From positions 1-64,000 of the forward strand of contig NZ_NFKI01000012.1 in assembly GCF_002160305.1 (NCBI RefSeq): 64,000 nt of DNA, written 5' to 3'. Numbering within the stretch: the first letter of the stretch is position 1; every line of letters begins with the position of its first letter. The notes under the pieces were generated by a model. That model ran no database searches. It was not told the DNA's origin and saw only the letters and a program-made list of their open reading frames with translations. The DNA comes from Pseudoflavonifractor sp. An184 (GTDB taxonomy: Bacteria > Bacillota > Clostridia > Oscillospirales > Oscillospiraceae). A program made the position numbers and the translations under genes. Shown here piece after piece: positions 1-63,961 of the stretch.

Positions 1-181
1 GAAAAATGCCAATACTTTCCCACCGCTGCGCGGCGGAAAAGTCCTCGCTGCGCTCGCTGAACGCCTTGCCATGCAAGGCATTCAGGGCATTCGATCCCAC
101 TCGAGGCGGGCCGCTGCCCCCTCGAGCTCCCCCGACCTGTCTCGGGCGTATTTGATTCTGCACGGGTTTTATGACAAACTG
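1..181 (+). repeat. Terminator-associated TIR element, copy 1 (cut by window edge)
   Basis: Right-hand part of the roughly 220-bp repeat found six times in this window. It shares the core with the other copies: the GC-rich hairpin near 25-40, the GCCTTGC/GCAAGGC stem near 66-82 and the CTCGAG-bounded stem near 100-126. It ends in a degenerate GACAAACTG terminus at about 181. The left terminal hairpin lies outside the window. The right end directly abuts the terminator hairpin of the Asp23-family gene. Confidence 0.85.
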
Positions 182-6111: not shown

Positions 6112-6196
6112 TGGTGCGCCTGAAGGGACTCGAACCCACACGCATCGCTGCACGAGAACCTAAATCTCGCATGTCTACCAATTCCATCACAGGCGC
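6112..6196 (-). tRNA. tRNA-Leu (anticodon UAG)
   Basis: 85 nt including an encoded CCA. Acceptor GCGCCTG pairs with CAGGCGC. The anticodon stem CGAGA/TCTCG encloses loop TTTAGGT, giving anticodon UAG, and there is a long variable arm as in class II tRNAs. The T stem has one T-T mismatch. The 5' 39 nt, up to the end of the anticodon loop, are duplicated upstream at 6825-6863, flanking a 667-bp insertion. This gene is therefore a rebuilt copy whose native promoter has been displaced. Confidence 0.93.
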
Positions 6197-18225: not shown

Positions 18226-18294
18226 CGCCCGTTTCCCCTATAATAAAAACCGGTCCATCTTTTGGAACCCTGTAAAGCAAGGAGGCACATCACC

Positions 18295-18540
18295 ATGACC
18301 ATTCAGTACACGCCTCGGGGCGTCTGCTCCCGGGCCTTTACCATTCAGGTGGAGGACGGCGCCATCCGCTCCGTTCAGATCGTGGGGGGCTGCGACGGAA
18401 ATCTGAAGGGCATCTCCAGTTTGCTGCGGGGGATGCCGGTGGACGAGGCCATCCGGCGGCTGGAGGGCATCCGCTGCGGCGGAAAGCCCACCTCCTGCCC
18501 GGATCAGATCGCCCAGGCCCTGAAAACGGCTCAGGGATGA
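18295..18540 (+). CDS. TSCPD domain-containing protein (TIGR03905 type)
   Basis: 81 residues from ATG 18295 with AAGGAGG 9 nt upstream; a longer in-frame extension lacks a start signal. It has the conserved pattern YTPRGVCSRAFTIQVEDG, VQIVGGCDGNLKGIS and the Cys-containing IRCGGKPTSCPDQIA of the stand-alone TSCPD family. The domain also occurs at the end of class II ribonucleotide reductases. The function of the small stand-alone form is unknown; the paired cysteines suggest metal or redox chemistry. Confidence 0.85.
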   Translation: MTIQYTPRGVCSRAFTIQVEDGAIRSVQIVGGCDGNLKGISSLLRGMPVDEAIRRLEGIRCGGKPTSCPDQIAQALKTAQG

Positions 18541-18541
18541 A

Positions 18542-18571
18542 AAACGGACCGCTTTCCAAAGCGGTCCGTTT
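18542..18571. terminator. Terminator hairpin, left duplicate (30 bp)
   Basis: Perfect 14-bp stem with 2-nt centre beginning 2 nt after the TSCPD stop. It is an exact 30-bp duplicate of 18792-18821. The two copies bracket the repeat element like a target-site duplication. Confidence 0.9.
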
Positions 18572-18791
18572 CAGGCTGTCGAAAAAGTCTAAGGACTTTT
18601 CCGACAGCCTGAAAAAATGCCGTTACTTTCCCGCCGCTGCGCGGCGGAAAAGTCCTCGCTGCGCTCGCTGAACGCCTTGCCCAGCAAGGCATTCAGGGCA
18701 TTCGATCCCACTCGAGGCGGGCTACCGCCCCCTCGAGCTCCCCCGCCAACACTCGGGCGGATTCGTCTGAACAGAGGTTTTCGACAAGCTG
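18572..18791 (+). repeat. Terminator-associated TIR element, copy 2 (complete, 220 bp)
   Basis: Begins CAGGCTGTCGAAAAAG and ends TTTTCGACAAGCTG, imperfect terminal inverted repeats of about 15 bp. The left 40 nt (18572-18611) form a near-perfect hairpin. Internal stems lie at about 18628-18652, 18668-18697 and 18710-18737. There is no credible ORF. It is flanked on both sides by the same 30-bp terminator hairpin. Confidence 0.92.
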
Positions 18792-18821
18792 AAACGGACC
18801 GCTTTCCAAAGCGGTCCGTTT
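18792..18821. terminator. Terminator hairpin, right duplicate, with T-run
   Basis: Exact copy of 18542-18571, followed by TTTTTTCTC on the plus strand. It probably retains terminator function for the plus-strand gene and for the convergent carboxypeptidase gene. Confidence 0.88.
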
Positions 18822-18828
18822 TTTTCTC

Positions 18829-20196
18829 TTATCGACGGCGGCGGCCGCTGTAATGGCCCCGCCGGCCCGCGCCCATACCTACGCCGGAGCGGTAGCGCCG
18901 GCGCTTCCGGAACACCAGCACCCGCAGCAGGACAATCACCACAACGGCCAGTACCACCACAAGGAGCAGGCGCACCCCCGCATTTTGGAAGAAGGTCTCC
19001 ACCTGGTGCTTGTAGTAGAGAAAATCCGAGCGCTCCACCGAGGTGTCCGCCACCAGGTCCAGCCGGCCGTATTCCGTCCCGTCATAGCGGATGGTCAGAA
19101 TGCCCAGCACCTGGCCCGCCTCCACGGGGGCGTCCACGCTCTCGCTGAATAAGGAGGGGACCATCTCCACCTGCTCCAGGTCGATGTCCTTGGGCAGGGT
19201 CCGGGTGATGGAGCCCAGAGGCTTTACGTTCACCTCGTCCGCCTGGGTGGACAGGTTTACCTTCACCTTGGCCACCAGGGCCTCGTCTGGGGACAAGGTG
19301 ACCCGCTGGAAGTTGCCAAAGCCCCAGTTCAGCAGCTTGATGGTCTCGCTGAACTGGCGGGCGTCCGTGCTGCCGTCCGCCTGCTTCACCTCTTCCGCCC
19401 CCAGGATGACGGAGATCAGATACATGTCCCCCTTCCGGGCGGTCTCCACCAGGCAGCATCCCGCCTCGTCGGTGGTGCCCGTCTTGCCCCCGGTGCCCGG
19501 GCCGTACAGATACTGGGTGTAGGTCCAGTTGGAGGTGAGGGCGTTGGTGTTGCGGATGATCCGCTCCTCCGACACGCCGTTGGCGGGAAGGGTGTAGTTG
19601 GGGCTGGTGAGGATGGTCTGGAACAGGTCGTACTCCATGGCCGCCTTCATAAAGCGGGTGATGTCGTAAGCGGTGGTGTAGTGGTTCTCGTCGTGGTAGC
19701 CGTGGGGATTGGCAAAGTGGGTCCCCTCACAGCCCAGCTCCTCCGCCCGCTGGTTCATGTGGTCCACAAAGGCCTCCACGCTCCCGTCCACCGCAATGGC
19801 CAGGATCTGGGCCACCTCGTTGCCCGAGGGGAGGAGCAGACAGTACAAATACTGCTCCAGGGTGTAGGTATCCCCCACCTGTATCTTGGCGGTGGAGCTG
19901 CCCTCCGGCACCTCCAGGGCCTCCGCCGTGGCAGTGATGGGGGTGTCCAGGGTCAGCTCTCCCGCGTCCACCGCCTCCAGCACCAGCAGGGCGGTCATCA
20001 CCTTGGTGATGCTGGCGGGGTACACCTTGTCATAGGCCCCCTTGTCATAGAGCACCTCGTCGTAGGTGGCGTCGATGAGGATGGCGTTGCGGCAGGTGAG
20101 ACCCGGGTCCTCCACCGCAGCGGCGGACATGGGCAGGAACAGGGCGGCCAGAAGGATCACCGCCGCCAGAAGGCTGGGAAAACGGCATTTTTTCAT
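18829..20196 (-). CDS. D-alanyl-D-alanine carboxypeptidase (S11 family, DacF-like)
   Basis: 455 residues from ATG 20196 with a GGAG 8 nt upstream (an ATG five codons earlier lies on that site). A signal peptide occupies the first 26 residues or so. The three active-site motifs are SITK (catalytic Ser), SGN and KTGTT. A C-terminal beta-domain is followed by a transmembrane helix (LLLVVVLAVVVIVLLRVLVF) and a very basic tail. It trims the terminal D-Ala of peptidoglycan stem peptides outside the membrane. The single C-terminal helix replaces the usual amphipathic anchor. Confidence 0.93.
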   Translation of the reverse strand: MKKCRFPSLLAAVILLAALFLPMSAAAVEDPGLTCRNAILIDATYDEVLYDKGAYDKVYPASITKVMTALLVLEAVDAGELTLDTPITATAEALEVPEGSSTAKIQVGDTYTLEQYLYCLLLPSGNEVAQILAIAVDGSVEAFVDHMNQRAEELGCEGTHFANPHGYHDENHYTTAYDITRFMKAAMEYDLFQTILTSPNYTLPANGVSEERIIRNTNALTSNWTYTQYLYGPGTGGKTGTTDEAGCCLVETARKGDMYLISVILGAEEVKQADGSTDARQFSETIKLLNWGFGNFQRVTLSPDEALVAKVKVNLSTQADEVNVKPLGSITRTLPKDIDLEQVEMVPSLFSESVDAPVEAGQVLGILTIRYDGTEYGRLDLVADTSVERSDFLYYKHQVETFFQNAGVRLLLVVVLAVVVIVLLRVLVFRKRRRYRSGVGMGAGRRGHYSGRRRR

Positions 20197-20273
20197 TGGG
20201 CAATTCTCCATATGTATGATATAATAGAAAAGAATCTCCGGCGCAGCGCCGGGATCAATATTCTGTAAACCTC

Positions 20274-27836: not shown

Positions 27837-27863
27837 AAAGGGGCGGCCATTGGCCGCCCCTTT
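27837..27863. terminator. Terminator hairpin of hpf (left partner of repeat copy 3)
   Basis: Perfect 13-bp stem around one nucleotide. It is similar, not identical, to the hairpin at 28084-28107 (GGGGCGGCCA...TGGCCGCCCC in both), as expected of an old, diverged duplication. Confidence 0.8.
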
Positions 27864-28083
27864 CAATATATCGAAAACCTGTGCGGAACAAAATCTGTTC
27901 GAGTCTGGGCGGGGGAGCTCGAGGGGGCAGCCGCCCGCCTCGAATGGGATCGAATGCCCCGGAAGCCTTGCTGTGCAAGGCTCCCGGCACGCGGAGCGCG
28001 GACTTTTGCGCTGCTGTGCAGCGCAAAAGTAACGGCATTTTTGCAGGCTGTCGGAAAAGTCCCTGGGCTTTTTCGACAGCCTG
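27864..28083 (-). repeat. Terminator-associated TIR element, copy 3 (diverged, 220 bp)
   Basis: Same length and order as the other copies, but about the most diverged. Two internal stems are preserved with different bases: CCGGaAGCCTTGC/GCAAGGCTcCCGG, where others have CTGAA/TTCAG at the stem base, and TTTTGCGCTGC/GCAGCGCAAAA, where others have TTTTCCGCCGC/GCGGCGGGAAA. The 40-nt terminal hairpin is at 28044-28083. It is flanked by similar terminator hairpins. Confidence 0.9.
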
Positions 28084-28107
28084 CGGGGCGGCCAGTTGGC
28101 CGCCCCG
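28084..28107. terminator. Terminator hairpin, right partner of repeat copy 3
   Basis: CGGGGCGGCCA/TGGCCGCCCCG stem followed by CTTTTT on the plus strand. Confidence 0.75.
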
Positions 28108-36358: not shown

Positions 36359-36440
36359 AACCCATCCTCCCGTCACGTTCTGCATCAAGCTATGAAGATA
36401 GGCCCCTTTTGGTGACGGGCGCCCGGAAAAGACAGCAAAA

Positions 36441-36467
36441 GACCGCCGTACGAAACGTACGGCGGTC
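36441..36467. terminator. Terminator hairpin beside repeat copy 4
   Basis: GACCGCCGTACG/CGTACGGCGGTC stem with an A-rich left flank and the repeat element starting 2 nt after it. Confidence 0.7.
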
Positions 36468-36468
36468 T

Positions 36469-36656
36469 CAGCTTGTCGAAAAACCTCTGTTCAGACGAAT
36501 CCGCCCGAGTGCTGGCGGGGGAGCTCGAGGGGGCGGCAGCCCGCCTCGAGTGGGATCGAATGCCCTGAATGCCTTGCATGGCAAGGCGTTCAGCGAGCGC
36601 AGCGAGGACTTTTCCGCCGCGCAGCGGCGGGAAAGTAACGGCATTTTTGCAGGCTG
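36469..36656 (-). repeat. Terminator-associated TIR element, copy 4 (truncated)
   Basis: Starts CAGCTTGTCGAAAAACCTC next to a terminator hairpin and keeps all internal stems. It breaks off inside the terminal hairpin after GCAGGCTG at 36656, where complete copies continue for 33 more bases. A small GCCCT/AGGGC hairpin follows. It lies between dpaA and the cytidylate-kinase-like gene. Confidence 0.88.
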
Positions 36657-50505: not shown

Positions 50506-50524
50506 TTCAGACTTCAGGCGGGTT

Positions 50525-50717
50525 TTCCTGCTCGGTGCGTGATGGGCCTTTTTAAACCCACATTTCTTAAACGGGACGCCCACCTCACGGCGTGGCTTGC
50601 AGGCCTCCCGGCCCCCATTGAGGTCGGCTGGAAGTTGGAAGCAGTAAAGCGTTGTGGAGGCGACCCACCTGCCATTTTGTGCAGGTTTTAAACAGGTCCA
50701 CACGGCCAGAGCGGGGT
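50525..50717 (+). ncRNA. ssrS: Probable 6S RNA
   Basis: About 190 nt with pairing ends (CCTGCTC...GTGCGTG with CACGGCC...GAGCGGG) and a long interrupted stem. The central region carries TTTTTAAACCCACATTTCTTAAACGGG on one side and GTTGTGGAGGCGACCCACCTGCC on the other, as I recall from clostridial 6S RNAs. It is non-coding on both strands. 6S RNA traps sigma-A RNA polymerase in stationary phase. A covariance-model search was not possible here. Confidence 0.7.
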
Positions 50718-50741
50718 ATATAAAACTCACTTGGATATGGG

Positions 50742-58130: not shown

Positions 58131-58175
58131 TTCGAGCGGATTTATCTCATCAGAAATTTTTTGACAAGCTGACTA
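58131..58175 (+). repeat. Remnant right end of a terminator-associated element
   Basis: TCGAGCGGATTTATCTCATC...TTTTTTGACAAGCTGA resembles the last 42 bp of the repeat family. It lies directly before the left part of copy 5, so two elements appear joined head to tail. Confidence 0.6.
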
Positions 58176-58355
58176 AAAATGCCGATACTTTCCCGCCGCT
58201 GCGCGGCGGAAAAGTCCTCGCTGCGCTCGCTGAACGCCTTGCCAAGCAAGGCATTCAGGGCATTCGATCCCACTCGAGGCGGGCTGCCGCCCCCTCGAGC
58301 TCCCCCCGCCAACACTCGGGCGGATCCGTTTGAACAGAGGTTTTTCGACATGCTG
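58176..58355 (+). repeat. Terminator-associated TIR element, copy 5 (lacks left hairpin)
   Basis: Core from AAAAATGCCGATACTTTCC to TTTTTCGACATGCTG, with all internal stems. The 40-nt left terminal hairpin present in complete copies is missing and replaced by an element remnant. The right end abuts the terminator stem at 58356-58383. Confidence 0.88.
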
Positions 58356-58383
58356 ACAGCCGGTTCCGTTTGGAACCGGCTGT
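58356..58383. terminator. Terminator hairpin beside repeat copy 5
   Basis: ACAGCCGGTTCC/GGAACCGGCTGT stem between buk and glnN (convergent). Only one copy is present here. Confidence 0.75.
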
Positions 58384-62149: not shown

Positions 62150-62548
62150 CGGATGATTTTGCAGCTGCTTCTCCCCTTCGGCCTTTTCCCCCCTCTTTGT
62201 GCTAAAAAGGGGAAGAAACTCCTCCGGGTTAGGACGAATGCTGCGCTCCGCGGTGCCACCTAACTTGCCCTCACAACCTGAGGACCACTTTTCCGGCTCT
62301 GACAAGCCATTGCGATGTAACGGTCGCCCCCGGCTCCCATACTTGCTTGCGCGTTCCGTTCGCGGCTGAGGAGTGTTCTTCCCGCGGTCTCCTGCGCGGG
62401 GCTTCCACCGTCCCCCGCTCTCTGGGGCCGAGCCTCCGCGGTACTTTTCTCCCTCAATGCCTTTGTCCGTATTGGGTGTGTCAACCTTCGCAGAAATGCA
62501 AAGAGGGCGCCGCGGCTCCCTTGCCGCAGCGCCCTTGCTGTTGATGGC
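62150..62548 (-). promoter_or_regulatory. T-box riboswitch upstream of asnB (probably tRNA-Asn)
   Basis: T-box hallmark AGGTGGCACCGCGG at 62261-62248 (minus strand) in a leader of about 400 nt. A Stem-I-like start GAGGGAGAAAAGTACCGCGG and a candidate AAC specifier at 62377-62375 (AAGAACAC) fit tRNA-Asn and the asnB product. An extra strong hairpin AAGGGCGC...GGCGCCCT precedes Stem I. I do not find a textbook terminator with U-tract after the antiterminator region. Confidence 0.82.
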
Positions 62549-63682: not shown

Positions 63683-63711
63683 AGCCCCGCATCCAGTTGG
63701 ATGCGGGGCTG
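63683..63711. terminator. Terminator hairpin, left duplicate (29 bp)
   Basis: AGCCCCGCATCC/GGATGCGGGGCT stem, repeated exactly at 63933-63961 on the other side of repeat copy 6. Confidence 0.88.
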
Positions 63712-63932
63712 CAGCTTGTCGAAAAACCTCTGTTCAGACGAATCCGCCCGAGTGTCGGCGGGGGAGCTCGAGGGGGCGGCAGCCCGCCTCGAGTGGGATC
63801 GAATGCCCTGAATGCCTTGCTTGGCAAGGCGTTCAGCGAGCGCAGCGAGGACTTTTCCGCCGCGCAGCGGCGGGAAAGTAACGGCATTTTTGCAGGCTGT
63901 CGGAAAAGTCCTTAGACTTTTTCGACAGCCTG
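63712..63932 (-). repeat. Terminator-associated TIR element, copy 6 (complete, 221 bp)
   Basis: Starts CAGCTTGTCGAAAAACCTC and ends TTTTTCGACAGCCTG. It carries the same internal stems as copy 2 and the 40-nt terminal hairpin at 63893-63932. It is flanked by exact 29-bp duplicates of a terminator hairpin. There is no credible ORF. Confidence 0.92.
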
Positions 63933-63961
63933 AGCCCCGCATCCAGTTGGATGCGGGGCTG
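63933..63961. terminator. Terminator hairpin, right duplicate
   Basis: Exact copy of 63683-63711. It lies 23 nt downstream (minus strand) of the stop codon of the gene entering from the right edge. Confidence 0.85.

Follow-up and report, generated by a model that had tools for sequence, protein, structure and literature searches.

A MITE of Pseudoflavonifractor that appears to insert into intrinsic terminators with duplication of the whole hairpin

Terminators or repeated palindromes are targets of group IIC introns and of palindrome-preferring ISs, which rely on different enzymes, and we know of no duplication of a whole hairpin by either of them. The closest described systems are IS1272 and TnSha1, two elements of the IS1182 family from Staphylococcus. 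They insert at hairpins or inverted repeats whose sequences are unrelated; several of these targets are confirmed terminators, and according to the accessible parts of the reports the stem-loop is partly or wholly deleted upon insertion, with no target-site duplication (PMC4923244, PMC5678879). Some of the older IS1272 targets are described as not being inverted repeats (PMC5678879). Beside the replacement pathway that its authors put forward for IS1272, the same paper draws the duplication of a whole stem-loop as a hypothetical pathway b (Fig. 13 therein). For palindromic targets, both papers cite a 2015 review on IS. IS1182-related elements, as far as the accessible text of another report goes, vary in duplication, deletion and type of target (PMC12056078), and for the family member ISPse1 the value 4 is listed in a column that we take as the length of the duplication (PMC3281130); going by this tabulated 4-bp duplication, hairpin duplication is not a property of the whole IS1182 family. 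Hairpin targeting is known in the family. Apparently new are the duplication of a whole terminator as the rule and its use by a MITE: no report of either was found in the literature searched, and since most subscription papers lay outside this search, this is no proof of absence.

The element at 18572-18791 and its insertion site

The window analysed here is a stretch of 64,000 nucleotides from Pseudoflavonifractor sp. An184 (NZ_NFKI01000012.1). The preliminary description had placed in it a 220-bp element that ends in imperfect inverted repeats, encodes no transposase and is bracketed by two exact 30-bp terminator hairpins, and each of these points was recovered. AAACGGACCGCTTTCCAAAGCGGTCCGTTT is present exactly twice, letter for letter, at 18542-18571 and at 18792-18821. 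The 220 bp between the two copies (18572-18791, plus strand) start with CAGGCTGTCGAAAAAGTC and end with GGTTTTCGACAAGCTG, the right inverted repeat (18776-18791, plus strand), and no ORF of at least 80 amino acids in the ORF listing overlaps them. At its left end the element has a 40-bp palindrome (18572-18611), which holds the left inverted repeat together with an inverted copy of that repeat. An A-run precedes the left hairpin copy and a T-tract follows the right one, and thus a terminator between two convergent genes was split. From reading the translations, the left neighbour (18262-18540) looks like a TSCPD-type protein and the right neighbour (18829-20211, minus strand) like a dacF-like D-alanyl-D-alanine carboxypeptidase; both assignments are putative.

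The element has the properties of a MITE. It is short and non-coding and has terminal inverted repeats, it is flanked by a target-site duplication and has empty sites in relatives, and it shares its ends with an autonomous element from another genome of the same genus (G007). Small size, lack of coding capacity, inverted repeats, many copies and a target-site duplication are also described for bacterial MITEs (PMC10969869). In contrast to the element studied here, the accessible text of that source mentions terminator-like repeats and structured transcripts, not a target-site duplication that comprises a whole terminator. A known RNA family was considered for the element and dropped, since the Rfam scan of the window gave no match at gathering score inside it. 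The three matches at this score lie elsewhere in the window: a tRNA (6115-6196, minus strand), a 6S RNA (50522-50721, plus strand) and a T-box leader (62227-62466, minus strand).

When the window element was aligned with 39 further copies (alignment A3), the 57 predicted pairs were paired in 98.9% of cells and those of the left palindrome (helix 1) in 98.4%. Two-sided changes were found at 9 pairs, versus a mean of 4.3 in shuffled alignments and 1 to 3 with slid partners; further pair types were not outstanding, with 60 of 500 shuffles reaching the observed value. The stems of the element body are maintained, and the pattern fits RNA and DNA hairpins alike; template switching in palindromes could also produce this covariation. 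On folding, the whole 289-nt stretch was far more stable than shuffles (z = -11.9), which is in part due to the two hairpin copies that can pair with each other.

Hairpins at the ends and length of the duplication

The An184 genome (3.59 Mb, 162 contigs) yielded at least 69 rows of element matches from the 40 candidates scored out of 160. The right-end motif, allowing up to two mismatches, was matched 102 times and the reversed pattern 4 times. Element matches were present in 12 of 60 genomes including that of An184, all from the same genus (one of 24 genera searched). From the An184 genome, 60 loci and 40 further stretches were read. Within the window, a copy with 98% identity (63712-63932, minus strand) lies between two identical 29-bp hairpins (63683-63711 and 63933-63961). 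Another copy (27864-28083, minus strand; about 81% identical over 213 bp) has a diverged right end, CAATATATCG.., and similar hairpins at its right (27837-27863) and left end (28084-28107). A copy cut by the window edge (1-181, plus strand) has a hairpin at its right end (182-204). Two copies are one-sided: that at 36469-36656 (minus strand) is without the left palindrome and has a hairpin at its right end (36440-36468), and that at 58157-58355 (plus strand) follows the right end of another copy and has a hairpin (58356-58383) at its own right end. Including these two, 18 copies in the genome are devoid of the left palindrome (others are, for example, L025, L027 and L028). Among the 18, a left hairpin that resembles the right one was seen by eye only in L080, and several start within about 10 bases of an upstream stop codon; our guess is that the left palindrome was lost by deletion of two neighbouring palindromes. 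At L004 and L029, two element copies stand in tandem and have one hairpin in common.

A hairpin (score of at least 13) starts within 4 nt of 79 of the 86 right-end motifs (up to two mismatches) in the An184 loci read, versus 88 of 5000 random window positions. The seven misses comprise L096, where a hairpin is visible by eye but unscored, L049, L066 and L092, where the hairpin is lost or halved, two places that belong to other repeats (L082), and the right end at 58171, which runs into another copy.

Other repeats were also seen. Short palindromes CAGCTTGTCGAAAA..TTTTCGACAAGCTG adjoin a conserved hairpin, ACTTTTCAGAACGTTAAAACGTTCTGAAAAGT, at L052, L082, L083 and L098 and may represent one end of a third family of repeats. 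Hairpins likewise adjoin a second family of MITEs with related ends (CAGACTGTCAAAAAAGTGG.. and ..GGGCTTTTTTGACAAGCTG), at L075 in the An184 genome and at L154 in the related genome G010.

Duplication of the flanking terminator hairpins, which the preliminary description had proposed to look for in other copies, is indeed frequent. Left and right flanks match (score of at least 12) in 35 of the 40 two-sided copies with an intact left palindrome and fall below this score in five. For 1560 permuted pairs of left and right flanks the median was 0.5, the 99th percentile 6 and the maximum 24, the latter probably from a pair of sites whose hairpins are much alike, such as L008 and L029; 18 of the 40 observed values exceed 24. 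The hairpins vary in sequence between sites and match only within a site. Varying as they do between copies, they do not belong to the consensus of the element; had they belonged to it, this would, as named beforehand, have spoken against transposition. The inverted comparison outscored the direct one in 7 of the 40 copies, with a clean inverted loop only in L006; the others are hairpins shifted by small indels, on which ungapped scoring performs poorly. In L006 (1504-1724) the loops of the two hairpin copies are opposite, and the copies agree in 32 of 32 positions as reverse complement.

An A- or T-tract (5 of 10 nt) adjoins the hairpin in just 26 of 35 copies, a count without a control. According to crude ORF calling in the 20 of 40 copies that have enough flank, a gene 3' end is present at a distance of up to 200 nt on the upstream side of the element in 11 copies and on the downstream side in 10. 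No orientation bias of the element relative to gene ends was seen in these 20 copies, as expected from the symmetry of a hairpin target.

Exact duplications measure 22-39 bp in 21 MITE copies and 18-36 bp in 15 copies of the autonomous IS; in 35 of the 36 the midpoint falls within 0.5 nt of the palindrome's centre. Because the exact lengths span 18-39 bp and yet stay centred on the palindrome, the length of the duplication seems to be set by structure. Ordinary long staggered cuts in linear DNA, with the palindrome merely preferred and the stem-loop without influence on the length, could in principle give duplications of 25-30 bp if the stagger were fixed, and the cruciform of our model is something we infer; however, the range of lengths and the centring argue against such cuts, which we regard as unlikely.

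An autonomous IS1182-family element and its relatives

When 15 genomes of the genus were searched for PF13751, 37 matches came from G007 and 12 from a second genome, G011. The G007 element mostly has 1590 bp (L144 only 1316 bp) and the ends CAGCCTGTCGAAAAAGTC and ATTTTTCGACAAGCTG; as in the IS1182 family, terminal inverted repeats about 1590 bp apart flank the transposase gene. Its transposase has the Pfam domains DUF772 and DDE_Tnp_1_6 and belongs to the NCBI IS1182 family (NF033551) with 392.8 bits at a cut-off of 270, a family whose name is silent on hairpin duplication. The cut-off is exceeded by the transposases of G007, G011, L061 and L107, and the nearest plasmid matches are annotated as IS1182 family as well.

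Of 32 loci read in G007, five did not have a full pair of ends and were left out. The remaining 27 distinct copies all have hairpins on both sides, which match in 16 (score of at least 15) and are two different ones in 10; in L117 they differ by one loop base. Like IS1272 and TnSha1, as far as the accessible accounts of these go, the G007 element combines an IS1182-family transposase with hairpin targets that have no sequence consensus. In 24 of 26 readable copies the transposase frame reads past the right end (..FFDKL or FFDRL) without a stop and enters the captured hairpin (for example L103, 463-1983). With no stop inside most G007 copies, it is the captured hairpin that determines the tail of the transposase. 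The transposases of G011 and G007 share 50% identity. Seven of the 12 G011 loci have both ends, four the right end only and one neither. The hairpins match in three of the seven, exactly in L122 and L128 and in 35 of 37 positions in L124, which differs only in the loop; L118 and L120 have one hairpin in common, at opposite ends.

The left ends of the MITE and the G007 element differ at only 1 of 18 positions (CAGGCTGTCGAAAAAGTC and CAGCCTGTCGAAAAAGTC, respectively), and both right ends contain TTTTTCGACAAGCTG. As an IS of the same genus has ends that are almost those of the MITE and treats its targets in the same way, an IS1182-family IS is the likely mobiliser of the window MITE in trans, and the transposase would come from the G007-type clade. 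In the An184 assembly a close transposase was not found; there are only two matches to the PF13751 family, of which the intact one (L061) is 29% identical to the G007 transposase. At this identity and with no hairpin at its ends by eye, L061 was rejected as the obvious donor. The MITE might then be moved by some other transposase and its resemblance to the IS1182 element be coincidental, for which speak the assembly without a matching transposase and the indirect case for mobilisation in trans; the agreement of both ends and the identical target behaviour make such a coincidence quite improbable.

A genome scan with the G007 and G011 transposases, from which 80 loci of named records were kept, led mostly to Oscillospiraceae and other Clostridia; viral contigs gave 7 transposase loci, and six plasmid loci were added to the set. 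With ends located by motif alone, a duplicated hairpin was found in 47 of 69 usable loci and in none of 4692 permuted pairs. Of the others, 15 have different hairpins on the two sides and 7 have one hairpin, among them three (L221, L244, L286) with a flank of at most 5 nt. These 69 remained from 91 loci after 13 without a recognised end motif and 9 at contig edges were left out. A stricter, independent script found a duplicated hairpin in 38 of 77 loci, again with none in the permuted pairs (0 of 5852); here 8 of 85 loci were left out as edges. The viral loci L268 and L269 are outside both counts. Included in both are the loci of record AP018533 (CCNA10), which appears to be G011 because the hairpins are the same. 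In Bacilli, copies from Sutcliffiella and Peribacillus have the same hairpin on both sides and the Exiguobacterium copy has two different ones. The element ends of ISEfa7 (L289) and of an Acetoanaerobium copy (L291) were sought and not located.

Empty sites and proposed mechanism

Empty sites with a single hairpin, a search for which the preliminary description had suggested, exist at three loci of the window. At site 63712, G010 and G085 hold one 29-bp hairpin, which agrees in every position with both window copies; the flanking pieces show 95% and 100% identity. At site 27864 there is again a single hairpin in G010 and G085, and the element is also absent from L280, L281, L283 and L284 in other genomes. 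At site 18542, where the junction was read in 7 of 30 loci, G026, G077, G083 and G078 are without the element and have one terminator-like hairpin each. In G010 the same junction is occupied by a MITE of another kind, which has a duplicated hairpin of its own, and in G008 by a relative of the window MITE with another, nearly duplicated hairpin. Counting the window, the terminator of this gene pair has three insertions in three genomes. The opposite picture, the same element with unrelated flanks and no empty sites, was looked for and not seen. Together with hairpins that are specific for each site, the empty sites support the earlier proposal of a transposition with a long target-site duplication whose target is an intrinsic terminator, duplicated as a whole. 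Different from IS1272 and TnSha1, as described in the accessible parts of those reports, the stem-loop would not be lost: a single hairpin is present where the element is absent, and two where it has inserted.

A replacement of the IS1272 type, in which insertion would remove the target stem-loop and the hairpins on the two sides would be terminators that had existed separately before, would be in line with the family relation and with the different hairpins in 15 of the 69 relatives and in 10 of the 27 G007 copies. For the matching copies it is contradicted by empty sites with one hairpin versus two identical ones in occupied sites. As to the non-matching copies, three G007 hairpins recur at the opposite end of another copy (L137/L139 in 26 of 26 bp, L144/L145 in 29 of 29, L129/L144 in 21 of 22), which is the expected trace of recombination between copies, shown for these three exchanges only. 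We therefore hold such a replacement to be highly improbable. That the hairpins belong to the element, which would carry its own flanking terminators, is hardly credible at all: nearly all ends have one, but their sequences differ between sites and match only within a site, and the orthologous empty sites that keep a single hairpin contradict it.

Very probably, then, we are dealing with a MITE whose mobility depends on an IS1182-family DDE transposase supplied in trans, which would choose palindromes, join the element at the feet of the stem and duplicate the hairpin. The transposase would act in trans on the MITE and select a strong palindrome; in the present case this would usually be an intrinsic terminator. 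Each 3' end of the element would be joined to a target strand at the 5' foot of a stem-loop, and gap repair would then leave a whole hairpin on each side, of any length or sequence, because the two joints would sit exactly one hairpin apart. The sequences themselves back the hairpin target, the duplication, the empty sites, the like behaviour of the autonomous IS and the centring on the palindrome. The recognised target would be an extruded cruciform or another stem-loop form, and the strand chemistry would be as outlined. Transcription would presumably still end after the insertion: one hairpin retains the side with the T-tract and the other the side with the A-tract, and termination may survive because the tract required by each gene is still present at the far hairpin, though lost from the near one.

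We lean towards a wider reading, in which a large clade of IS1182 elements in Firmicutes reads the shape of DNA, that is, the cruciform of almost any strong palindrome. With joints at the two 5' feet of the cruciform, the duplication would be defined by structure and not by distance. Terminators would be the natural supply of such palindromes and the duplication would be a safe landing for both genes, which would let the MITE spread to about 100 right ends in one genome and supply many gene ends with a conserved, structured segment.

There is little documentation of DDE transposases that choose their targets by DNA structure. These genomes offer a natural data set for such a choice, in which the length of the duplication tracks that of the palindrome and empty sites are clean. 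Pathway b, in the accessible text of its source so far a drawn possibility (PMC5678879, Fig. 13), becomes directly testable. If our reading is true, it would suggest a sequence-independent way of inserting DNA at the ends of genes and would explain a class of repeats that places extra structured sequence after many genes.
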